Made by a program: the position numbers and the translations under genes. Positions 8,597 to 64,000 of a DNA stretch of 64,000 nt are shown here, in pieces. Below the pieces are notes generated by a model. That model saw nothing but the letters and a program-made list of their open reading frames with translations, was not told where the DNA came from and did not search any database. The stretch lies in NCBI GenBank assembly GCA_025917655.1, contig CP084608.1, positions 992,001-1,056,000 on the forward strand. The letters run 5' to 3'. The stretch is from Chlorella sorokiniana. Lineage: Eukaryota > Chlorophyta > Trebouxiophyceae > Chlorellales > Chlorellaceae. How positions within the stretch are numbered: position 1 is the first letter of the stretch; each line of letters opens with the position of its first letter.

Positions 8597-10423
8597 ATGG
8601 AATCGAATGACAAAAGCTTGAGCAGCAGCGACGCAGGGCATGCAACCTCTGCTACCTCGGGCGCAGCAGAGGTGTTTGAGACGGACGAGGAGCTGCAGCA
8701 GCATGTGGCCCACTACGACGCCCTGCACCACACGGAGGAGCTGTCCGGATCCTTTGCATCCAAGGCCGCACTGGGAGGGAGACAAGGCGCTGGCAGGGGC
8801 CCATCTGCCGGGCGCGAGCAAAGGGGCCCCCTGGAGGGCGAGGGCGGTGGTGCGGCAGCTACGCCGGAGCGCACCAGTCCCCTCGACCCAGGGGTTGGCG
8901 AGGTATGCGTGTTGGTGGGATGCTGACTGTGCCAGCGCCCTGCACCGCCTTGTCAGACGCCCCAACTTCTTGTTGTACAGGAAGCTCGGGCCTCGGAGAC
9001 CAAGTCCCAGGTGCCTGGAGAGCCAGTGGGCATGGGGTTGAAGGTGCGGCTGACGAATGCCGGGGGAGGGCAGCCAGGGTGGCTTGCTGTGCAGAGTTAA
9101 AGGCAGGGGCCTCAAGCACTGCTCAGCCCCCTTGATTTCCGTCGCAGGCGCTGGATGTTGGGCGCGATCTGCTCCAGTCGTTTGCGCCGCTCAGCGCGGT
9201 GCACGAGCACGTGTGCGCCTGGCACTTTACGCGCACGACATGTCCCGCCAGGTGGAAGCGCACCACTACTGCAGCCACCCCAGCGGCGAGGTCCGCCAGT
9301 GCTGCCTCTTTGACTCCGACCAGAAGGGTGCGGCGCCGCGCCCCGCATGCACCTGCGCTGCGCCTGCTGCCCAGCACTGTGCCAGGCCTGCGGCGGGCGC
9401 TGCCGCTCCCGGAGAGCGGGTGGGCGCCTGATGCCCCAGTCACATGGTGCAGGCGCGCGCCTCATTGGGGTTGAGTACATCATCAGCGAACGACTGTTCA
9501 GGGAGCTGCCAGAGGAAGAGCGGAAATACTGGCACAGTCACAGGTTGGCCGGGGGCCTCCCCCAGGACACCCTCGGCGCCGGCAGCGGCAGCAGGGAGGC
9601 CCAGGGTGGCTGGAGCCGAGCATGCTGGCATGCAACGTGTGCATGTCCCAGCTTTTCCCACTCGCCTCCACCCTGCCCGGCTCGCTGGCTCGGTTCCCGC
9701 TGCAGGTACGAGGTGGGCAGCGGCCTGCTGGTGGCGCCTCGGGTGCCAGACATTGCGGAGCGGCAGGACATGCAGAAGCTGATTAGCACCTACGGCAAGA
9801 CGTGGCACATGTGGCAGGTGGACCGCGGGGACCCCCTGCCCTACGGTGCGACGCAGCACAGGCCAACCAATCCTTGCACCTTGCGACGCTTGGGGGAAAT
9901 TTAGCACAACCTCAATTTTCAGCTTGGAAACCACCTCCCTCCAGCCTGCACATTTGCACGAGCCCATTTCACCGTATGACGCTGTACTGCCAAACCCGCA
10001 TGGTCCAGGCCCGCCCCAGCTGATGATGGCCTTCACCGGGGATGGGCAGGTGCAATGTGAGCTGGTGGAGGAGCGGGACAGGCGGTACGGAGTCAGCACC
10101 GCAGGTGGGCAGAGGCCGTTGAGCTGCATTGTGTGCCGAATGAACTGTGACAGTGTTGCCTGCAGCACATGATCCATGCTGCGCATGGGTCATGTGCATG
10201 CCTGCACATCCAGCCAGCTTGAAATGCCCCTGCGCGTGCAGACAAGGGCCAGCAGCGGCGAGAGCTGCTGGACTGGCCAGAGGCTGTGCTGCCTGGCGCT
10301 GACCATTGGCAGAGCGGCAGCGCCTGGCAGGTGACCATGCGGGAGGTGCAGTTCAAGCGGGGTAACCTCGGCAGCAGCAGTGCTGTCCAAGCTGAGGCTC
10401 GGACAAGGACCTCTTCGTCATGA
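8597..10423 (+). CDS. Oil-body-associated protein-like (OBAP, DUF1264)
   Basis: OBAP/DUF1264 family; plant members associate with lipid droplets in seeds. ATG at 8597-8599 starts an acidic Ser-rich N-terminus, MESNDKSLSSSDAG. Exons then give LDVGRDLLQSFAPLSAVHEH, YAHDMSRQVEAHHYCSHPS, RLIGVEYIISERLF, LPEEERKYWHSHRYEVGSGL, YGKTWHMWQVDRGDPLPYG and VEERDRRYGVSTA. These match the OBAP core including the HDMSRQ-HHY and WHSH segments. The last exon (about 10237-10423) is a basic, less conserved tail ending TRTSSS-stop. It sits between the divergent ABC1K and the convergent eIF4E. The family call is secure; the droplet role is inferred from plants. Confidence 0.88.
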
Positions 10424-13921: not shown

Positions 13922-15365
13922 ATGTTGGCAGGACTGGCCTGCCCTGCAGGCAGAGTGCTGGGTGGCGCTCCCTCCTCCAGGGGCCCACCACGGCGAGTTG
14001 TGCGTGTTGCAGCATCGACAGAGAGCCTGAGTACTGCCCCCACCCATGCAAGCGGACGGCGCCAGACTCTCGTGGCTGGCAGCGCACTTCTCGGCGGCCT
14101 GCTGTTGCCTGGTGGCGACCGCAGCGCACGTGCCGCTAGCAACGAGAGCATTTACGACCTGTCCGCCCTGATGTTTGATGAAGAGGTGGGCAGCATGTGT
14201 GGTTGTCACGTAAAAAGTCAAGTTGCGGAGGCGCACTTGGTGGTTGGAGGTGCGCTTCTTTGGCATCAACAGGCCGCTGCGCGGCTTTCCCTCTGCTGCA
14301 GGTGGCGCTGTCAAAGTACCGCGGGCAAGTACTGCTGGTCCTCAACGTCGCCAGCGAGTGACCCTTGCAGAACGTCAACTACCCGGGGGCCAGGACGCTG
14401 TGAGTTGGGCTGCCAGACTAAGCTGCTGAAAACTCTCCGGCATCCTGCCAGTGCTTGCACTGTGCCGTGTGTGCCGTGCAATCACCCGCTGGCATTGCTG
14501 TTGCCAACAGGTACGACAAGTACAGGGCCGACGGGTTCAACATCACCGCCTTCCCATGCAACCAGGTGCGACGCCGCCCATCAAGCCGCAGCAAGCACGT
14601 GTGGCTGCAGGCACCTGCCAAGCCCCACGTTCAAATCGTCTGTACCGCCGCCCTCTGCAGTTTGGAGGGCAAGCGCCAGGCACCTCCCAGGAGGAGCGGG
14701 AGTGGGCATGGCGGAAGTTTGGCTTTGAGTTTGACGTTTTCGACAAGATCGAGGTCAACGGCTCCGGAGCGCACCCCATCTACCGCGTGCTGAAGAAGCA
14801 GCAGCCCATCAGCCTCCCCTCCTCCTCCAAGCCACCGCCGGGCGAACCTGGCCGCATCGAGTGGAAGTGAGTGCGGCTGTGAAGGGGCTTCAGCTGGCGC
14901 GCCTGGCCTGCCACATGCCATCGGGCTGCCGTCCGCCCAGCCTATTCCCCTCTCTTTGCCGAACAGCTGGGTCTGTTTGTGATGTTGTGCCCTGCCCCTT
15001 TGCTGCAGCTACACCAAGTTTTTGGTGGACCGCGATGGCGTGGCCCGCAAGCGCTATAAGCCCGGTTTTGACCCGCTGGAGTTTGAGAAGGGTGAGGCCG
15101 GGAGTGTTGTGGGATGCCAGGTGGCAGCAGGCAGCGACGGCTTGCACGGGGCATGAACCAGCTGCACCTGCAAAGCAGCCTTGTCGCAGGCTGAGCTGCT
15201 GGTTGGCAGGGGTTGGCACAGCTTCGCCTTTGCCCCGTCTGCTGCGCATCATCCTGCCCCTGCACGTCCCTGTGCAGATGTGCGCCTGCTGCTGGCGGGA
15301 AGGAGCCGCTGCCGGCGGAGTGCATCATGCATCCCGGCAGGAAGGTGTGCAAGGTTGACCTCTAG
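13922..15365 (+). CDS. Selenocysteine-containing glutathione peroxidase, plastid-targeted
   Basis: Reduces peroxides using a thiol donor. Exons give YDLSALMFDEEVALSKYRGQ, VLLVLNVASE-[TGA]-PLQNVNY, then YDKYRADGFNITAFPCNQ, FGGQAPGTSQEEREW, FDVFDKIEVNGSGAHPIY and RIEWNYTKFLVDRDGVARK. The TGA (14359-14361) falls exactly where family members have the catalytic Cys or Sec. The other tetrad residues (Gln of FGGQ; Trp and Asn of EWNYTKF) are present, and a SECIS hairpin lies 90 bases past the stop. The leader holds RR followed by a hydrophobic stretch and ARA, like a bipartite chloroplast signal. The start at 13922 is preferred; an in-frame ATG at 13763 is possible. In the last exon the frame slips by one base near 15297, before KEPLPAECIMHPGRKVCKVD and the stop TAG at 15363-15365. 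Confidence 0.9.
14359..14361 (+). other. In-frame TGA, probable selenocysteine codon
   Basis: TGA between GAG (Glu) and CCC (Pro) inside the exon encoding NVAS-E-TGA-PLQNVNY. The exon has good splice sites on both sides, the reading frame is conserved before and after, and the position is the catalytic residue of the glutathione peroxidase family. Confidence 0.88.
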
Positions 15366-15701
15366 AGCTGGCACCCGTGTCGCCACTCATGGTCTCGCTG
15401 AACAGCCTGCAGCATCATGCCCGTGTGCACGCGGCAGGCAGCCGCCCCTGCAACATGACGGCGCCAGGCCAAACCGCCGCTGCGGACGCCTGGCGCCCGA
15501 CTCTGTGGTCACTCAGCATCACTGCCCTCGTCCTGGCAGACTGCTGCTGGCCCTGCAGGGCTGCTGCCCAGCCCCGTTGCTTGTCGTGCTTAGCTGCTGC
15601 GACTGCCTTTCCGTCGCTGCTTCCTTTTGTGTGCGATGGCAGCTACTGTTTGAGAGAGTACTTTTCTTTCCAGAGATGTGGAAGGCAAATGACAGCGGCT
15701 G
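15366..15701. other. Convergent 3' region between glutathione peroxidase and GAF-like gene
   Basis: The left part is the glutathione peroxidase 3' UTR and contains the SECIS hairpin. The right part should be the 3' UTR of the minus-strand gene. I found no TGTAA in it. Confidence 0.5.
15455..15501 (+). promoter_or_regulatory. SECIS element (type II-like hairpin)
   Basis: AUGA at 15455-15458. The stem GGCGCCAGGC (15460-15469) pairs perfectly over 10 bp with GCCTGGCGCC (15488-15497). The apical loop begins CAAACC (15470-15475), with the conserved AA 12 bases after AUGA, and a small inner stem CCGC/GCGG (about 15474-15485) gives the type II form. GA at 15499-15500 faces the GA of AUGA to form the tandem sheared G.A core. 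It lies in the 3' UTR of the peroxidase gene, where eukaryotic SECIS elements direct UGA to Sec. The fourth non-canonical pair would be U.C rather than U.U. Confidence 0.88.
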
Positions 15702-17842
15702 CTAGGTTGGGGCAGGCAGCAGCGGCAGGGATGTCAGGAATCTGCGCCGCGCCCGCAGCTCCAAGCGATACAGGAGCGGCAGAGGCGCTGCCGCCACAAC
15801 CACCCGACCCTGCGCAGTAGCAAGCAGCGATTGTTGCGCCCGAGCAGGTCTCTGGGCTGGATGCAGACTGTGGACCCTGCCGCTCACCAGGCAGCTTGCC
15901 ATGCCCGATGGGTGGGCAGCGCTCCAGCCTGAGGGCAGCGTCCCCGCCAGCAGGAGCAGCTGGAGCGGCGCTTGCACGCAGAGGCGGGCCTGCAGCCGAG
16001 ATACCTCGTGTCAATCAACCCGGGGCAACTCTGCAGCCACTCGCCATCCTTGCAAAGCATGGGTGCCAGCACTGGTCGTACCTGGCATGCCAGGAACGGC
16101 AGCAGAGGCACCAGAGCAGCCAGCAGCCCCACGGGCGGAGCTCCTGGCCCAACTGCATGCCTCATGGGCAGTGAGTGCCGCTGCAGCCATGCCCAGGCCA
16201 GGTGAAAGAGGAACATGAGTGGGTCCCTGTACTGCACGAACCTGCCCCCAGGGTGCAAGACAGACGTTAGTGCAAGTGGGCACTCGGTGACAGAAACCAA
16301 ACAGTAGAGAGGCAAACAATGTAGGAACTCACATGGTTGGGGCTGCCAGCACGACCATCAACAGAGCCAGGGAGCATACCGCAGCAGCGGCCAGATGCAG
16401 CGCGGGCCCGCCAGCCAGCAGCATGCCGCCACGGGCCAGCAGGAGCAGGTGCAAGGCGGCTGTCAGGCCGGCCGACAGCGCATCCGAACGGCGCAGCTGG
16501 CTGCTGTGCCAGTGCGCAAAGCGGCGTTCCAAGGCGGGGCTGTCAAACCGCAGCAGGCTTCGCCAGCTGGCGCCAGCCTGGCGAAGCTCTCGCACACTGG
16601 CCACAGACTCGGCAGGGGATGGCTTCTTGAGCTCTTCCTGCTGACTGGTGCCCACGTTGCTGCCGGAAGCGTCTCCTGCCAGCGGGCGGGCGACGGGCGG
16701 CGCTGCGGCGGTGCTGCTGCTCTCAGCAGCCTCCCCTGCCTCTCCCATCGCCGAAGGCTTACTGAACTCCAGCAACTGGCCGTTGCGCTGCTCCTTGCCG
16801 TGCTCCCCACTGTGGCTTTGCCCTTGGCTCGTGGCAGCAGAGGCCGGGCGGCCATGCCACCCCCACGGTCCAGCGAACGATGCGAGCCCGCCGAGCTCGC
16901 TGCCTCGGCAGCATACTGCGCCGCCTTGCTTTGCGGCCGCGCAGCGTCAGCCTGCACGACCAGTGCCGCCGCCGCCGAGCCCGGGTCTTCCGGGTGCTCT
17001 GGGCTTTCGTCGCGGCAGCTGCCAGCAGCCCAGGCAGGCTGCAACGCAGCCTGTGTCTGCTCTGCGTGCACTTCAGGCTGCTCCTGATCCTCGTCTTCGG
17101 CCTCTGTGAGATGAAGATCGCTCTCCGCTTCGCTGCTCAGCTCTTCCTGGGCTGCCCATGCGTGCTCCGCCTCCTGCCCCTCCACACCAAGAATCAGGTT
17201 GCTGTGCCGCACCAGCACGACGGCAGCGTCTTGCAGGCACAACGCCAGCGCACCAGCCAGCAGCTGCAGGTTGCGTGCATGCCGGGCATCCAGCTGCGCT
17301 GGGCTTGCAGTGCTCAGCAGCACCGCTCCCAGGCAGCGGGGGCCCCGCTGCTGCAGCATTGGCTCAGCTTCGATGCTTTGTGCAGCCAGCGCAGGCTGGA
17401 GAATGGGGAGGCACAGGATGCAGCTGCCCTCAAAGTCGTGGCATGTCAGCTGCTGGCTGGCCTGCGCAGTCAAGTACACAGGCTCGCGCCCGCAGCATGG
17501 CGGTGCCGGCGGCGGAGGCCGCGACTGGGTGTAGGGCCAGCGCCAGGCGGCCCGGCTGCAGGAAGGACCCCACGCATGCCAGCACCTGCCGGTCAGCTGT
17601 GGGCACGCTGAGCCTGCAAGGGGAAAGGGCGTGCAGCCTTGGACGACCCTTGGAAGTCAGAATAACGGGTGAAGAGCCGGCTGCAGCACCCAGCCTCCAG
17701 CATCCCCGCAGTCGTGCCTCAGGGCCACTGCGGACGGGAACAGGCTGCCAAGGGCAGCGGCGGTGCCCTCTGCCACAGTGTCCTCCCACACAGCCGTCCC
17801 CACAGCTTCTGCCAGGGCCGCCACAGTCTGTGGTGCCTGCAT
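15702..17842 (-). CDS. Putative multi-pass membrane protein with GAF-like N-terminal region
   Basis: Not a gene I can name. ATG at 17840-17842 gives QTVAALAEAVGTAVWEDTVA, the helix that opens many GAF sensor domains. Later segments, CILCLPILQPALAAQ, GPRCLGAVLLSTASPAQLD and LLAGALALCLQDAAVVL, follow the GAF pattern. Next come a long Glu/Ala-rich linker and WHSSQLRRSDALSAGLTAAL. Hydrophobic helices follow, including LLMVVLAAPTM spliced to FVQYRDPLMFLFHLAWAW. The C-terminus is PLPLLYRLELRARRRFLTSL with a stop at 15702. This layout resembles uncharacterised green-algal membrane proteins. There is a probable frame slip or missed intron near 17500-17530. Exon edges are approximate. Confidence 0.55.
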
Positions 17843-24763: not shown

Positions 24764-27700
24764 ATGTTGCGCTGGGTTCCGTGCGGCGGCAGGGACTGCA
24801 GGGAGGGCACTGCCTCTGCGTCCCCTGCCGCCGTTGGACCTCAGCCACGCTCTGGGCACAGCTTGGTGACGCTTGGCGTCGACAACGACACCCACGTGTT
24901 GTTTGGAGGGTCGGGCCTGGTGGAAAGCGGGACGGCCGACTATTTTGCAGATGTGTACATAGCCCGCGTGATGCCTACAGATGGCAGCGTGCTGTGGCAG
25001 CCGGTGGCGGTTGAGGGCAGCGTGCCGCCCCCGCGGGCTCGCCACTCCGCTGTGGCCCTGGATGCTAGGCGCATGCTGATATGGGGCGGGATGGAGCACA
25101 AGCAGCGCTTCAACGACTGCTGGATCTTGGACATCAAGGCGGGGCAATGGACAGCGGCAGAGGTGTCGGGCTCGCCCCCAGCCCCCGAGCACACCACACA
25201 ACATGCAAGCTTGGCAGCAAGGTCTTCATTTTTGGAGGCTACGGCGGCAGTGGCACCGCTTTTGGCGACTTGTGGATGCTGCACTTGGGTCCTAGCCTGC
25301 GCTGGGAAGAGCTGGCTGCGGCGGGGCCCTGTCCACAGCCTCGCTTTGACCATGCAGCGGCGCTCCTCCCAACAGCACCCAACAGCCCTGTTCCGGACAA
25401 GCTTGTCATTGTTGGTGGCAGGGACACCACCCAGAGCTTCGAAGACACGCATGTGCTGGATCTGGAGAGCATGACCTGGCAGCAATCCCACGCGGTGCCG
25501 CCACTGGCAGGCCAGGTGGGCGCCATGGCACACAGCGGGTGCCACCAGAAGCGGGTGCCTTTCTCTCGCACGCCTGCAGGGTGTGTGTTTGGCCTCTGGG
25601 CGCGCATGGCAGGCTTGCACGCTGCCCATGCAGCCCATGCATGCCCGCTCCCCTTCGCCCATGCAGCTGACCAGCCTGCTCTGCACCAGCGTCGAGAGCG
25701 TGCCCTTCCACAAGGTCTTCGCCGCCTTTGGCAGGAAGGCGCTGCTGGAGTACAATGAGGGGGTGCAGGTGAGACGGGTGGGCGCTTGGGCGTGTGGAGC
25801 GGGGCCTTGCAGGCAGCGCTGATGCGTGTGTGGTGTTTGTGGCTGGAACCCTGCACTGCAGGCGCTTGATGCTGGAAGCACAATCTGGACATCCCCTCAG
25901 CTGGCGGGGAATGAGCGGCCATGCGGGCGCGAGGAGGCAGCGTGGGCCTGGGATGCCAGATCCTTCTCCCTGCTCCTCTTTGGCGGCTGGGCAAACAGGT
26001 GGCTCGGCGACACCTGGCGTGCCGACATCAGCAGCATCATTGGTCCGGGATACGCCTGCCTGGGGATCAGCCCAGCCATGGGTCCTGTGGCTGGCGGCAC
26101 TGCGGTGCAGATCAGCGGGCTCCGTTTCAGGCAAGCTGGCAGCTGGGGGCTGCAAAGAGAGAGCCATGGAGTGATCTGCCACTGGCAGCCTGGCGAGGAT
26201 GCCATGACACGCTGCATGTTTATCATCCTTGCCGCACAATGCTGCTGGCTGCAGGGATGGCAGAATCAAGGTGAAGCTCGTGTCAGAGAAGGGGCACACC
26301 GTAGTTGACGGCACATTTGGCAGCAGCGAAGCAGTGTGGTTCAAGACGCCCTCATACGAGGAGCATGGGGCACTGTCGTGCGATGTACACGTCAGCATCG
26401 GCTCCGGCAACTGGACAGTCAACCACATAAAGTTCCAGGTTGGCAGTGCACTGCAACGCGGGCAGCTGCCAGGCTGCAGGGGGAACGTCTGCCGGCAGCA
26501 GCCCCAGAGATGCTGACACGCATTCCTGCATCCCCCTGCAGTACTTCGCCAATATGCTCGCATCCGCAAGCCTTGCGTCCGGCCCTGGGCTGCTCCCTCA
26601 GGTGCCGCATGAGCCTGGCAGCGTGCTCAGCGTGCAAGCGCAGCAAGCCAGGCAGGCCCTGCAACTTTGCCCCACACCAACCCGCTCTGCTCGGAGCGCA
26701 GGTGTACTGCGGCATTGAGATGCCGTTCACCCTTCTGGCCAAGGACACCATGCATCACAAGCGCACCAGCGGCGGTGACGTTTTTGAGATCACCGTAGAG
26801 AGCGAGGCAGGCGCCGCTGTGGGCTCCACCCGCATCGAGGATTGCGGCAACGGCATGTACAAGTGCCACTACCGGTGAGCCTGGGGCTGAGCTTGCGAGG
26901 CAAAGGAAGACGGGAGGGGCGCTTGATGGCGAACATGTACTGCCTCTGTGCTTGCAGGGCCCCAGCGCCCGGGCGGTACAGGATCATAGTGCGCGGCGCG
27001 CAAGTCGGCGCTGATGGTGGCATGGCTCACATCCGAGGCAGCCCCTTCGCCGTTGAATGTTTGGACCCCTGGCAGCGGCGGGACCTGCCTGGCGTGGCCC
27101 CATCAAAGCGGGCTGGCGCCATGCTGTCGTCAGCTGGCACTGACCTCGTGCTGTTTGGCGGGGACAAGTCACTTGCAGCAGTGTGCCATGCTCCATCTGG
27201 CCACGACTCCTGGCAGTGGTTGCCTACCACCGATTGCGACAGGCCGCCACATCGCAAGGCGCATGCGGCAGCGGTCCTGGGTGACACTCAGCTTGCCGTG
27301 CATGGGGGTCAGGCGCTGGAGGGCGAGCCAAGCGACCTTGTAGATGTGAGGCTGCTGGTCAGGGATGGAAGCAGTCCTGCTGGCACCACCTGGCAGTGGG
27401 AACCAGCTGGCAGCGAGCCTGAGCTGCACAGCCGTCAAGACGGGCAGCTGGTGCCAACAGAGCGCAGCAGCCACTGCGCAGTTGCCCTTGGCAGCACGCT
27501 GCTCATCTTTGGCGGAGAGCACCAAGGACAGCTGCTGCAGGAGCTGTGCCTACTTGACATGTCTGCCAAGGTTGGAGAAACCTGCATGGCGCTGCTGCTG
27601 CTGGCGTGCTGCTGCTGGCGCTGCTGCTGCTGCTGCCGCTTGTGCCGCTGCTGGCGCTGGTGCTGGTGCTGCTGCGGGTGCGGGTGCTTGCGCTGGTGCT

Positions 27701-45499: not shown

Positions 45500-48400
45500 T
45501 GGTGGTGGGGGACAGACGCTGCGGTTGGTGTGCTGCTTGAACTGGTGTCCAGCATGCCCCCTGCACCCATCGACTGTCACACCCTTCCCAACTGCCCTGT
45601 GAGCCGTGACCACTGCTGCGGCCTCTGCCCCTGTTCCCCGCCCCTGCAATGTCCCGCAGAGCGGCGCCATCGACCCTCGGGAGCTGGACCACCTGTGCCG
45701 CTGGCCACGCGCCGCCGCGCCGCCGCCCATGAGCGAAGAGCTGGCGGGCTGGCTGAGCGAGGGGCAGTGGGCGGCGCTGGTGCCGCTGGCGCAGCAGCTG
45801 CCCGCCTTTGCGGGCCTGCTGAAGGACCTGGAGCGGAACGGGGACGACTGGTGCCAGTGGGTGGCGGCGCCGGAGGACGAGCCCATGCCAGGTGCCCTTG
45901 CTGCCGTGCCGCCTGCGCCTGATCAAGGATGACGAGGCGCTGTGGTCGCTGAGCTGGCAGCCCTCCGCCTTGTCAGCCACAGCCGCAGCGCCCCCACACA
46001 CACACCACACCACTACCACCACCCACCCACCCACCCACCCCCACTTCCTCCCGCAGGCGAGTGGTCCAAGCTCAGCGACTTCCGCCGCCTGCTCATCCTG
46101 CGCGCGCTCAAGCCCGACCGCATGCCCGCCGCGCTGAGCGCGCTGTGCGAGCGCGCCATGGGCCCGCGCTACGTCAACCAGGAGCCCTTCTCGGCACGCG
46201 CTGCTGGCGGAGAGCAGCGCCGCCACCCCAGTCTTCTTCGTCCTCTTCCCGGGCTACTCGCCGTCGGCGCAGATCGAGGCCTACGCGCGCACCGGTGGGC
46301 GAGGGCGGCGGGCAGGGAGGGCTGGGGGAGGGGGAGGAGCAGCAGGAGTGGCCTTGGTTGCCACGAACACCTGTCTCGTATCCCGCCTGCTGGGCTTCAC
46401 GGCATGAGCGTGATGGCCCCATCAAACCTTCTGGCTGACGCTGGCCCCCGCATCCATCCGTGCCGCGCAGTTGGCCACACCCAGGAGAGGGGCAACTTCT
46501 GCGTGATCAGCCTGGGCCAGGGGCAGGAGGTGCCCGCTGAGCGTGTACTGGAGAAGTACATGAAGGAGGTGAAGGCTGGCGCACACGCCCCACCGCTGCC
46601 CGCTACCGCACCACTGCCCCCATCGCCGCTTCCTGCCTGCTTGCTGGCAGGGCGCTGGCGGCTTTCTGCGCGTCCCGTCTGTGCCTTACTGCTCGTGCTG
46701 AACCTGCCGCTCTTCCGCCGCTGCCCCGCGCTGCAGGGTGGCTGGGTGTTCTTGGACAACGCGCACCTCATGCAGGGCTGGATCCCCACGCTGGAGCGGA
46801 AGCTGGAGGCGGCGGCCGAGGGCGCGCACCCCGACTTCCGCTGCTTCTACTCTGCGGAGCCGATTGCGGGGCGCCCACGCCGCATCATCCCGGAGAGCCT
46901 GCTGCAGGTGGGGGCGGCAGGGAGGATACGGCGGTTTGAGCGGAAAAGCAGGTTTCCACGATTGTGGGGTGCTGTTGGCCGGGAAAATTGGGCGTGCCAA
47001 GGGCGCGACCACCACCTGCAAGCCGGGGCATGTCCTCCGCTGGGTGCAGCCTGCCAGGCGTGCCGGCGTCCCACGCCACCCTGCTGCCTCTGCTCCGCAT
47101 GCCACAGCTTGTGCTCCACTCCCCCACTCCACCCCCGCGCAAGCAGGCCTCCATCCGCGTGGCCAACGAGCCTCCCTCCGACATCAAGTCCAACATGCGC
47201 CGCGCCTGGGCCGCCTTCCCCCGAGTTCTTCGCCCGCGCCTCCACCGAGCCCAAGCGGCGCGCGCTGCGCGGCATCATCTTCGGCCTCTGCTTCTTTCAC
47301 TCCCTCCTGCTCGGCCGCAAGAAGTTCGGCACGGGTGCGCGCGCCCAGGGCTGGCCACCTCGTTCTAGCCCGCCAGCAGCGGCGAGCACCCCGACTGCTC
47401 GCTTCCTTTGTACATTCCTCTGCCTGAACTTCCGGTGGGTTGCTTGAAGCATCCCCCAGCAGCCCTGTCTTTACACCTTGCCCCCCACCGCCCCCCCCCC
47501 CCTCCAGGCATCGGCGGCACGGCTGCGGGCGGCGGCGCTCTCGGCTACTGCCGCTCCTACTCCTTCAACGCCGGCGACCTGTCCACCTGCGGCGACGTCG
47601 TGCTCAACTACGTGGAGGGCAAGGCGGCGGTGCCCTGGCAGGACCTGCGCTACCTGCTCTGCGAGGTGTTCTACGGTGCGCTTGCAGGGGGTGGGGGGCA
47701 GCTTGTAGTGCCGACCTGGTGCAAGGGGGCTGCTGGCGGGAGGGAGGGCAGTCAAATGAGTTCTGCACACGGAGGGACAGCCTCGCCGGCAGCTCACCGA
47801 GCATTGCCGACTGGCCTGCTTCCCACCCACGCTCACTACACCGCTCCCCCTGCCCCCACCTTTCCTCCCCCCCAAAAATCACCACGCACACACCAGGCGG
47901 CCACGTGGTGGATGAGTACGATCGCCGCCTGCTGCGCACCTACCTCGACGCGCTGGTGCGGGAGAGCCTGCTGCCGCCGCCCGAAGCGCTGGCTGCCCCG
48001 GCAGACTCCCCCGCAGCCCAGGCCCAGCCGCCGCTGGAGCTGAACCGACTGGTGCCCGGGGCAGCCCCGCGGTTGCCCCGCTTGCCGCAAAGGCGACCGC
48101 CGCTGCGGGCAGGGCGCGTGGCAGGGCGGAGGAGGACGAGGAGGAGGAGGAGGAGGACGAGGCGGCGGCGGCGGCGGCGGCGGTCTTCCGCCCCCTCCGC
48201 CCCTGGACTACGAGGCGATGCGGCAGTACATCGAGGGCCTGCCCGCCGACTACCCCGCCCTCTACGCCATGCACGGCAACGCGCAGCTGTCCCTGCTCAA
48301 CAGCCAGACCGAGGCCCTGTTCCAGACCATCCTGGAAGTCGGCGGCGTGGCGGGCGCCCGAGCGGCGGCGGCGGCGGCGGCAACGCGGCCGCAGCGGCTG

Positions 48401-58780: not shown

Positions 58781-60647
58781 CTAGCGCGAGGCGCAAGACG
58801 CGGGCGGCCGCTCAGCAGTGGTTGCCCGGCCGTCGGAGCGGGGCACGTGGAAGGTGGCGGGGTGGGCCTTCAGCAGGCCCACGTGGCTGTCGTGGTCGTA
58901 GCCGGCGGTGTAGCTGCGGGGGAAGTCGAGGTGGGGGCGCGCGGCACGCCCTCGCCGTCATCCACCGCCAGCCACAGGCGCACGAGGTGGCGCCGCTCGT
59001 GGGGCGCCTCGCCGTCCTCAAAGGGCGAGCGGCGGTGCAGCACGCAGGCGTTGTTGAGGAAGAGGGCGTCGCCGGGCGCAGCGCCGCTCGGAACTGGAAG
59101 CGGCGCTCGCTGGCGATGTCGGTGAACAGCTGCATGGCCTCCTCCTGCCGCGGGGTCAGCGGGCCCAGCAGGTGGGGGTAGCGCGCGTGGCACATGCGCG
59201 TCTGCCCAGCGTGGAAGTGCACGCTGAGGCGGCCGTCGTGGTAGTGGAAGACGGGCATCTCCCACACGGGGCAGTGCCCGGGGGCAGCTCCTGGTACTGC
59301 GCGCGGTCGCGGGCCCAGCCGCGCCCGCCATGCACGCCACCAGGTCGCCGCGCCCCCGCCGCAGCATCTCGTTGTGCACCGCCAGGGTGGAGGACCAGCC
59401 GCTGACGCCGCCGGCCTTGGCCTGGCTGATGCACAGCAGGCCCAGCACGTCGGCCTGGGTGTCGGTGTGCCAGTCAAAGTCCTGCGGCGGGTTTGGGAGG
59501 GGTGGGGAGGCGTCAAGCGTGGGCAGGGTGCGAGGATGGGAAGGAAAGCTCCAGCCCAAGTTGGTGCAGGCAGCAAGCCGCAGGCGGGGCAGCCACTGAC
59601 GAGCCAGGTAGCCTGCATGGCGCAGCGGCAGCCGCAGCGCGGCCCGCCCCGCCACCCAGCCAGCGCCGCCGCTCAGCTCACCAGGTTGTTGGCGTGGCCC
59701 TTCATGTGTGAGTTCCTGCCCAGGCCGTCGGGGCCGCCATGACGGACCTGAATGCCGCGCGCCGCTGCCTCCCGCGCCGCCGCCATCTCCGCCGCCCCAA
59801 AGTCCTCGGTGTGCGCCACCTTGACGTGGCTGACCAGGTTGCCGCGCTTGGACTGGGGGCTGCGGTAGCCGATGTGCGCGCCCAGGCCCAGGTAGGCCGC
59901 CAGGTTCTGCCACTCGCTCCAGCGCTGGCTGGGCAGGCCGCGCACCAAGTGGAAGCCGGCGCCGTGCACCAGCCGCCGCTTCATGCCCGCCAGGCGCGCC
60001 TCCAGGTCGGCGGGCAGCGGGAAGTCGGAGGGGCGCTTGAGGGCCGCCAGGCTGGCGCCCGCCGCCTGCAGCGCCGCCACCTGCGCCTCGATGGCCGCCA
60101 CATCGGCGGCGCTCAGCTGCAGCACCCACTCCGACTCGCGCCCCTCCCAGTCGGCCGCGTGCCAGGCGGCCGGGTCCCGGACGATGGTGTAGGGGCGCAC
60201 GCTGCCCTGGGGGCCGCTCTCGCGAGTGACGGGGCCGGCGGGGGCGCCACGCCCTCCACGCCCTCGGACTCCAGCCGCGCCATGCACACGCCCAGCCGGC
60301 TCCAGGAGGGTCCCCGGCTGAGCGCGCGCGACAAGCAGCGCTGCAGCGCGGGCGCCGCAAAGGGCGACTCGCACGGACCGCATGCGGTGGGCACGGCCTC
60401 GCTGCAGCAGGAGGGTGAGGGTCGGCGCGTTGGTCAGTCACACACTAATCAGCGTTGATCAGTCAAACACTAATCAGCAATTTGCTATCGAGCTGAGCAG
60501 CACGCGGCCTGCAACCGCACGGCCATCCACAGCAGTGCCCACCCACCTGATGGGCAGCAGGTGGGCGGAGCTGCTGCAGGAGAGTGCCTGCCGCTGGGCC
60601 GAGTTCGACAGAGCCATGGTTTCCTGCTGGATCTGCACGGTCGCCAT
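58781..60647 (-). CDS. TauD/TfdA-like Fe(II)/2-oxoglutarate dioxygenase
   Basis: Clavaminate-synthase-like oxygenase fold. Exon 1 (ATG 60645-60647 to about 60549) gives MATVQIQQETMALSNSAQRQ and splices in phase to EAVPTACGPCESPFAAPALQ. Conserved parts follow: YTIVRDPAAWHAADWEGRES, HGAGFHLVRGLPSQRWSEWQ, NLAAYLGLGAHIGYRSPQSK, then DFDWHTDTQADVLGLLCIS. In the last, His (59467-59469) and Asp (59461-59463) are the HxD metal ligands. SGWSSTLAVHNEMLRRGRGD, VFHYHDGRLSVHFHAGQ, LFLNNACVLHRRSPF and RRHLVRLWLAVDDGEG (distal His) follow. The tail DFPRSYTAGYDHDSHVGLLK ends at TAG (58781-58783). The conserved segments lie in several frames, so about four single-base slips are present. The substrate is unknown. 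Confidence 0.78.
60434..60478 (+). repeat. Two 20-bp direct repeats in intron 1 of the TauD-like gene
   Basis: TCAGTCA(C/A)ACACTAATCAGC occurs at 60434-60453 and 60459-60478 with one mismatch and a 5-base spacer. It is AT-rich against its GC-rich surroundings. Confidence 0.9.
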
Positions 60648-61304: not shown

Positions 61305-64000
61305 TCAGCGTCCTGGCGGCGGCGGCGGCAGCGGCGACCCGTCTGCCCCGGGGTACAGATCGAAGTGGTCCATGAGGAACAGGTAGAAAATCATCCTGCG
61401 GGGGTTGGAAGGGGGCGGCGCAAAAGGCTGGGCTGAAACAGCACACTCCAGGCTGTACAGCTGCGGAACGGGCCCCGCACGCGGGCAACAGCACAGGCCC
61501 AGAAGCTGCAGGGCGCTCTGGCAGCACACATGCAGCAGCGCCCGCAAGGCTGCAGGGGGGGCGCACCAGCCGGGAATGGCCAGCATGGCAATCATGTACT
61601 CCCAAAAGATCAGGGCTCCTGCAAAAGAAGGGGGAGGGAGGCCTTGTTTGCAGCGGCCCAGAATCAGCGAGGGCTGCTGAGCGCACGGGTACATGGGATG
61701 AACGCGCACCGATCTCCTTCTCGTGGTTCTGGAACATTGACGCCATGTTCTGTATCTGGTTGCTGGTGGGGACCGAGTACTGCAGCAGAGGTGGGACGGG
61801 GAGGGGGCGTGCGGGGTGTGTGTGTGTGAGGGGGCGGCACACATGCGGGCACACGCGTGTGGCGTGGGAGCCAGCCTGCCAGTTTTTTGGCCGTGCCCGC
61901 TGCCACGTAACGCCAGCCTTCCCAGCTGCCCAGCCCACCCTCACCTGCAGCAGCAGCAGGAAGACGAAGACCGGGTTGGGCGGGTCGTACCAGCCCAGCT
62001 TGATGGATCCCACCACGATGACGCAGCCCAGCAGGGGCAGCACCAGGAAGCGCACGCCGACCACCGCCAGCGCCGCACGCACGCCGACGCTCCGGGTGCC
62101 GGGGCCGGGGGCCTGCCGGTGCCCGGGAGGGGGTTGTGTGTGGGGGGGGCGCGTGCGCGGGAACAGGGGGTCAAAGTTGAGCAAATCATGCAGCAGAGGC
62201 AAGGCACACGAGAAGCTCTGCTCATGCTGGGGAGGAGGGCGGGGCGGAGGACGGCAGGGTCGAGGAGGCAGCGCCTCCGCCCCGCCCCCCTCGCGCATCG
62301 CTGCCGCATCCCCTGCCCCGCCTTGTGCAGCCTCACCCAGGCCATGGACGCCCCCAGCACAAAGGAGGCCACAAAGACGCACGAGTTCTGCAGCGACTTC
62401 ACCGCGCCCGTGATGAAGCCCAGGGCCGCGCTCTGCCGGGAAGAGGTGGTGGTGGTGGTGGTGGTTCATGATGGTGGTGGGGTGGGCGGGTGGGATGAAG
62501 GGTGGAGTGGGTGTGTGTGGGGGTGGGGGACGGAAGTCGGAGCGCCGCTTGCAGCGTGCAGGTCCGGGGCTTGCTTGTGCTGGAAAGCAGGATCGCTGAG
62601 CAGCTGGCTGTCGCCTTGCTCGAGGGGCCTCAGGCCACCCGGCGGCCCCCTCACCTGCACGGGGAAGAAGAGGTCTTTGATGGGCTTGGCGCAGGCGATG
62701 CCCAGGCTGATGATGGCTGTCACCGTGGGCAGGATGAGCACGTACCTGGGAAAAGGGGGAGGGGCAGCGGTTGAACAAGCTTGCAAATGCCCTATCAGCT
62801 GCACCTTGGTGCCATGCACCTGATCAGACTGGGCCGGGCGGGATGCGCGTCAGGCTGTTCAGGCCTCACTCGTAAATGTACAGCCACAGGCCGCGACCAA
62901 CGCGGTACGGCAGGCTGCGCGGGGACGCTGCGCTGCCCCTGCGTCGGCCACGCCCGCTGCCGCCTGCTCGTCCCCCTCATCTTCGTCAGCGTCCTCCCCT
63001 GCGTCGAGCGGCTTTGTAGGCCTGCCACAGCTGCCCTCAGAGGGCACGGCGACCTGCCCCGACTCTGCTCGGTCCAGCTGCTTCTGCTCATCCGTCTCCG
63101 CTTCCGTTGCCGCTGCCCCCTGCCCGGCTTCCACCCCCGTCGGCCCCTTTACCGCCGCCAGGCGGGGCGATGCCCTGCCGCTGCCTGCTGCTGCCCCAGT
63201 GCCGCCGGCGTTGCGTGGGCCCAGGCTGAGAGAGTGGGGCGCCGAGGCGGCCTTGCTGAGCTGCAGCACCGCCGCGTCTCCCACCGCCGCCAGCTCCGTT
63301 GCGGTTGACTGGCTGGACAGCCGCCTGCTGGCTATGCGCAAAGTCTTGCTGGACAGGCCCCGAATCACCTCAACAAAGCTGCGAGGCGGCTCTCGCGCTT
63401 CACCATCAGCCACTTGGCGATGGGGACTGCGGCGGTGAGGGCAGGGAATGGCGGGCTGACGCAAAGCAGGGGGCGTCGGCAGCACCAGGCTGGCGGAAAC
63501 TGGCCATCAGCCAGAGCGAAACCCAGCGCCAGGGCCCGACTGCTGAGGCACGCAGCAGCCAAGCCAGCTGGCTGCCATGCAGCAGGAGCCAGTCAACGGC
63601 CAGCCGCCGCTCACACCCAAAAACTTGATTGACGGCGGAGGAGATGGCGACGTAGGTCCATCCGATGGACACACACTGGTCTCCAAGGGCTGAAGGTGCA
63701 AGGGGAGGGGTGGGCACGGCAGCAGCCGCGGACCAGGCGGCTGAGGCTGGGGGCTACTGGAGCGCTGCAAGTTGCAGACCAGGGCTGCGGGCGCACTGCA
63801 AACGTGACGTTGGGCAGCTTGAAGGCTGCGAGTGCACCCCACAACCCCGCTGCCCCGTCAGGGGCCCACCTTGGTAAAACGGCATCTTCTGCTGGTTGCA
63901 CACGGCAGTGGTGATCATCAGGGGCAGGCTGCAGGCGCGGGGGATCAGCGGAAGGTTGGCCTCACCGACAGGGCGAGGGGTGCACACGGGGCTGGTGGTC
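61305..64000 (-). CDS. PILS/auxin-efflux-type carrier (Mem_trans family), 5' end outside window
   Basis: Membrane transporter of the auxin efflux carrier superfamily. PILS proteins sit in the endoplasmic reticulum of plants and algae. From the right edge the exons give CSLPLMITTAVCNQQKMPF (the family's N-terminal helix), LGDQCVSIGWTYVAISSAVN, PIAKWLMVKRE, and a long hydrophilic loop rich in Ser, Ala, Glu and Asp. Next come KYVLILPTVTAIISLGIACA, LQNSCVFVASFVLGASMAWV, RFLVLPLLGCVIVVGSIKLG, WYDPPNPVFVFLLLLQ and YSVPTSNQIQNMASMFQNHE, then ALIFWEYMIAMLAIPGW. The last exon is MIFYLFLMDHFDLYPGADG with a stop at 61305-61307. Frame changes near 62.93 and 63.39 kb resemble those of its neighbours. The start codon is beyond the window. 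Confidence 0.82.
62446..62465. repeat. (GGT)n microsatellite in a PILS-like intron
   Basis: Seven consecutive GGT-type units, followed nearby by further GGTGG runs. Confidence 0.85.

Follow-up and report, generated by a model that had tools for sequence, protein, structure and literature searches.

The analysed window, a stretch of 64,000 nucleotides, carries intron-rich genes at a G+C content of 65.3% and looks like green-algal nuclear DNA. Pfam matches were obtained in it for eIF4E, Erg28, ribosomal protein L14, and a dynein motor region. The dynein match belongs to an outer-arm dynein alpha heavy chain-like gene at approximately 28320-52206 (+), of which a kelch exon at 24875-25141 is probably a part; its best solved match is the outer-arm heavy chain alpha of 7kzm, presumably a Chlamydomonas entry, and a sub-threshold filamin match precedes the gene. 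The dynein, kelch, and filamin-like sequences together suggest a flagellate or formerly flagellate alga. The window also contains an exon of a DUF1264 family protein (9707-9844, +) and a long exon (59679-60248, -) in which TauD-like dioxygenases matched below threshold.

A six-exon glutathione peroxidase (GPX) gene extends on the + strand from 13922 to approximately 15365, with GT-AG at all five intron borders. Its features, as read directly in the DNA, are as follows.

13922-14185, + strand: exon 1, N-terminal extension and start of the GPX domain (SIYDLSALMFDEE); open frame with a GT donor
14057-14134, + strand: candidate twin-arginine lumen-type signal RRQTLVAGSALLGGLLLPGGDRSARA, assigned by pattern only; hydrophobic, ending in ARA directly before ASNESIYDL
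14302-14399, + strand: exon 2, carrying the TGA (NVASE-U-PLQNVNY)
14359-14361, + strand: in-frame TGA in exon 2, proposed selenocysteine (Sec) codon
14511-14565, + strand: exon 3, FPCNQ with the catalytic Gln
14661-14866, + strand: exon 4, GPX core; REWAWRKF without a resolving Cys; its 3' end lies inside the catalytic Asn codon
15009-15091, + strand: exon 5, completing the catalytic Asn; YTKFLVDRDG
15278-15365, + strand: exon 6, DVRLLLA in frame, then an apparent one-base deficit; the adjacent frame reads GKEPLPAECIMHPGRKVCKVDL to a TAG stop at 15363-15365
15446-15507, + strand: SECIS-like element with AUGA at 15455, a 10-bp helix, AAA on the 5' side of the apical bulge, and GA; located by Rfam, pattern scan, and folding

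The spliced product matched the GSHPx domain (PF00255) at 99.1 bits against a cut-off of 27 (E 1.4e-28); two NCBIfam GPX models also matched it, both far under their cut-offs. In the structure-chain search, the closest solved chains, which we take to be plant, kinetoplastid, and GPX4-type enzymes, were found at approximately 4e-39 to 8e-31, with GPX1 behind at 1.7e-20. Codon log-odds of exon 1 were poor in all frames: -37.1 for the used frame, which was the only one without stops, and -39.1 and -51.1 for the other two. Translation may alternatively begin at an upstream in-frame ATG (13763), which could give a longer extension.

In the spliced model, the TGA is preceded by ...LVLNVASE and followed by PLQNVNYPGARTLYDKY. 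It occupies, in a three-row alignment, the column where the solved GPX chains 2p5q and 2vup, presumably poplar GPX5 and the T. brucei enzyme, respectively, have their catalytic Cys. An alignment search of prokaryote genome contigs yielded at least 548 relatives among 595 stretches; in the best 80 of these, which were analysed, the catalytic codon is TGC in 48, TGT in 28, and TGA in 4. The catalytic Gln, Trp, and Asn are intact in the window gene and invariant both in the three-row alignment and in the 80 bacterial rows. The residue directly after the TGA is Pro, at a position occupied by Gly in 79 of the 80 bacterial rows. The initial annotation had described an in-frame TGA in place of the catalytic Cys, with the rest of the tetrad (Gln, Trp, Asn) intact and conserved coding sequence on either side; the spliced model and the alignments to 2p5q, 2vup, and the 80 bacterial rows confirm the first two points, and GPX homology together with same-frame codon bias on both sides of the TGA bears out the third.

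The used frame of exon 2 had codon log-odds of 3.5 upstream of the TGA (-8.9 and -21.8 in the other frames) and 0.3 downstream of it (-15.3 and -11.1), with a codon table that was seeded with exons 1-5 of the GPX gene and had no exon 2 among its final training segments. A 12-codon test gave only 0.3 and 0.3 on the two sides of 14359-14361. The codon test is modest, and weak by itself; the frame rests on homology and not on codon usage. Over the whole window, the 12-codon scores were positive on both sides of two TGA (including 14359), three TAG, and one TAA codons. The other TGA (62866-62868, -) lies within GAGTGAGG and, judged by eye, looks like part of a splice donor and not like a Sec codon.

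One would expect a Cys-type enzyme to retain its resolving Cys. The plant Cys-type enzyme 2p5q, a member of the same family with 44% identity in the alignment, has both the catalytic and the resolving Cys. At query position 84, Cys was found in all 76 Cys-type bacterial rows and Ala in all four TGA-type rows; the window gene has Ala. Both eukaryotic Cys enzymes, 2p5q and 2vup, carry a Cys within positions 83-87, where the window gene has none. Thus, the resolving Cys of the VCTRF region that characterizes the two-Cys (thioredoxin-type) GPX is absent from the window gene.

The four bacterial genes that have TGA as the catalytic codon and Ala in place of the resolving Cys (L019, L037, L055, and L067; three from Acidimicrobiia/Acidimicrobiales and one from Myxococcales) are probable bacterial selenoproteins, as judged from their sequences. 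They share the position of the TGA codon and the Ala with the window gene, and L019 has the highest identity to it of all rows (51% over 145 columns). In contrast to the window gene, they have Gly, not Pro, after Sec, and they form a clade of their own (100/100) apart from the window row; because all four fall in one clade, they do not represent four independent cases. The window row was placed on a long branch (1.74) beside two other eukaryotic rows, a placement that was not used, as long branches come together at that point and the bootstrap had not stabilised. The alignment search of viral contigs gave 114 relatives among 127 stretches. TGA was found at the catalytic position in none of the best 80 viral rows of these 114, which showed 39 Cys codons and 41 other residues, and Pro follows the catalytic position in 41 of the same 80. 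The single-protein scan returned no pattern match in the viral contigs and no confirmed relatives among 18 matched stretches of the genome contigs.

Downstream of the coding exons, Rfam placed a SECIS_1 (RF00031) match at 15446-15507 with 24.6 bits, which is under the gathering score of 35. Across all 4227 families, its E value was 0.089 for the 2.6 kb searched and 2.2 for the whole window; among the matches listed for the window at E up to 10, it was the sole one to SECIS_1, and no family of Rfam matched the window above its gathering threshold. A pattern scan of both strands for AUGA, AA, and GA with a paired helix was designed after the Rfam match was known. It returned one element scoring at least 9, namely 15446-15507, compared to 0.0067 per 128 kb in shuffles that keep local composition (n = 150); at a score of at least 5, there were two in the window versus 0.72 in the shuffles. 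A narrower control on 30 random strands gave no hits, in agreement with the 150 shuffles. The folding energy of the element is -28.9 kcal/mol (z -3.76), with none of 200 shuffles equally stable; its lower helix is weak. The UGA-to-SECIS distance is 559 nt in the spliced mRNA, and the AUGA lies 89 nt downstream of the likely stop at 15363-15365. The placement of the element in the 3' UTR follows from assuming a one-base slip in exon 6. TGTAA was not found on the + strand from 15301 to 17000, and no tRNA was found within the window.

Exon 6 as written continues the GPX C-terminus with DVRLLLA and then becomes poorly coding (log-odds -28.5), without a stop until 15703-15705, so that this frame traverses the SECIS-like element. 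The adjacent frame, GKEPLPAECIMHPGRKVCKVDL, has log-odds of +3.0 from PLPAEC onward (-14.1 in the third frame) and ends at the stop 15363-15365. The simplest reading of the sequence would be that one base is missing from the assembly near 15297-15299; the break may instead be a genuine frameshift. Alternative acceptors of intron 5 near the start of exon 6 were inspected by eye, and none keeps DVRLLL while restoring the frame. No homologue with the exon 6 tail was found for checking the frame. Three frame breaks, probably assembly indels, are also seen inside exons of the window's dynein gene, each at a short run of C (near 47217, 48200, and 49302, +); at these breaks, the aligned solved chain continues without a long insertion.

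The genetic code was considered using other genes of the window. The eIF4E frame ends in ...ERYTV-TGA and the ribosomal L14 frame in ...KKSAK-TGA, both apparent stops. The L14 end (AAGTGAGC) could be taken for a splice donor as well; the eIF4E end is firmer, since a YTV ending is typical of that family. TGA as the apparent stop of these two genes indicates that it is not reassigned, and, with the stop-codon survey of the window, code reassignment was rejected.

These features point to a nuclear, green-algal, Sec-type glutathione peroxidase of the GPX4/plant type, whose mRNA has UGA as its catalytic codon and carries a SECIS in the 3' UTR, a reading to which we assign a probability of about 0.93. 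The initial annotation had proposed a probable selenoprotein, and this view gains support from the SECIS-like element, the absent resolving Cys, the TGA stops elsewhere, and the homology on both sides of the codon. The SECIS-like element, the twin-arginine-like N-terminus, and the exon 6 slip are additions to what that annotation had noted. An alternative is a decayed pseudogene, in which the TGA and the frame slip of exon 6 would be two disabling mutations. There are indeed two apparent lesions and the last exon is out of frame, but the TGA coincides exactly with the catalytic codon and has a SECIS-like element downstream, all five introns have GT-AG borders, and the frame is kept through the core exons. 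Moreover, the slip lies beyond the core domain and resembles the breaks seen at short runs of C in the dynein gene, so we consider decay very improbable.

Splicing could also, in principle, eliminate the TGA. A donor at 14358 (GTGACC) joined to the acceptor before 14511 would remove the TGA and 14 residues in frame, leaving a normal product without Sec: a GT is present and the phase fits, since exon 2 would have 56 nt instead of 98 and, as counted by eye, both leave 2. Such a product would lack its catalytic residue as well as the conserved NY..TL helix. The removed stretch shows in-frame coding bias, and the normal donor GTGAGT is nearer to the consensus; the SECIS-like element and the lost resolving Cys would also be left unexplained. 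This splicing is therefore even less credible as the main product than decay of the gene, while a minor isoform may use the donor at 14358. An intron of 13 nt spanning the TGA (GTGACCCTTGCAG) would be too short and was discarded. A sequencing error in a TGC or TGT codon of an ordinary Cys-type GPX is conceivable in an assembly that apparently contains indels, but it accounts neither for the SECIS-like element nor for the absent resolving Cys, and it appears the most remote of these explanations.

A Sec-type GPX is expected in a green alga on the basis of algal surveys and the precedents in Chlamydomonas. In the accessible portions of these surveys, over half of 36 algal genomes are recorded as having this enzyme type, and 0-5 selenoproteins are given for Trebouxiophyceae, Sphaeropleales, and Streptophyta (Jiang et al. 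2020, PMC7539508); the full Sec machinery is described in the TUC-clade genomes examined, with the exception of Monoraphidium neglectum (Liang et al. 2019, PMC6627142). Two Sec-type GPX are reported from Chlamydomonas in the available text of PMC3095285, which, with PMC7539508, agrees with the earlier statement that Chlamydomonas and other algae have such enzymes. As described there, GPX1/GPX2 of Chlamydomonas reinhardtii (CrGPxA, CrGPxB) are likewise green-algal nuclear GPX with catalytic Sec and predicted organellar targeting; CrGPxA has Gly after Sec, whereas the window gene has Pro (PMC3095285). The same available text proposes no lumen signal for CrGPxA and CrGPxB, in contrast to the candidate twin-arginine lumen-type signal of the window gene, the comparison being made by description, and calls the plastid GPx of seed plants stromal (PMC3095285).

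From the features of the gene, we infer a mechanism in which the spliced mRNA would present the UGA at the catalytic position and the SECIS hairpin in its 3' UTR, and SBP2, eEFSec, and tRNA-Sec would decode the UGA as Sec. The chemistry would then consist of hydroperoxide reduction by the selenol. Since a resolving Cys is missing from its usual site, regeneration of the oxidised selenium would fall to glutathione or a different thiol, for which the two Cys of the C-terminal tail are possible candidates. The protein would be imported into the plastid and subsequently carried by twin-arginine transport into the thylakoid lumen.

The proposed localisation derives from a 71-residue extension that precedes the GPX domain. 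Its first 45 residues resemble a plastid transit peptide, being basic and rich in Ala and Ser (5 Arg, 1 acidic), and plastid import of the protein is probable. The pattern of a Tat passenger is present, namely a transit region, RR, an uncharged hydrophobic stretch, and AxA before the mature domain, and such a twin-arginine-like signal suggests that the protein moves on into the thylakoid lumen. Among 20,000 shuffles of the extension, the pattern arose in the same place in 40 and anywhere in 248. A loose Tat expression matched 14 times in the six-frame translation of the window and is not significant alone; the weight of the signal therefore comes from its position and not from the bare motif. 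The twin-arginine route transports folded proteins, and, to our knowledge, little glutathione chemistry has been described in the thylakoid lumen. It is possible, though on balance doubtful, that the gene encodes a thylakoid-lumen selenoprotein, a Sec-GPX delivered by the twin-arginine route with the C-terminal Cys pair CIMHPGRKVC as its own resolving thiols. No report of a lumenal selenoprotein was found in the accessible text of the thylakoid and lumen literature searched, which mostly excluded subscription papers.

Automated gene prediction would probably truncate or divide this gene at its active site; the present model adds one algal selenoprotein read through together with its SECIS. Sec-type GPX are already known in algae and the gene adds another, while its new and as yet unproven part would be a lumenal selenoprotein. 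According to the available text of PMC8462822, a H2O2 sensor in the Chlamydomonas lumen is oxidised on H2O2 addition. If the lumen signal works, the gene would place a selenium peroxidase beside the water-splitting side of photosystem II.
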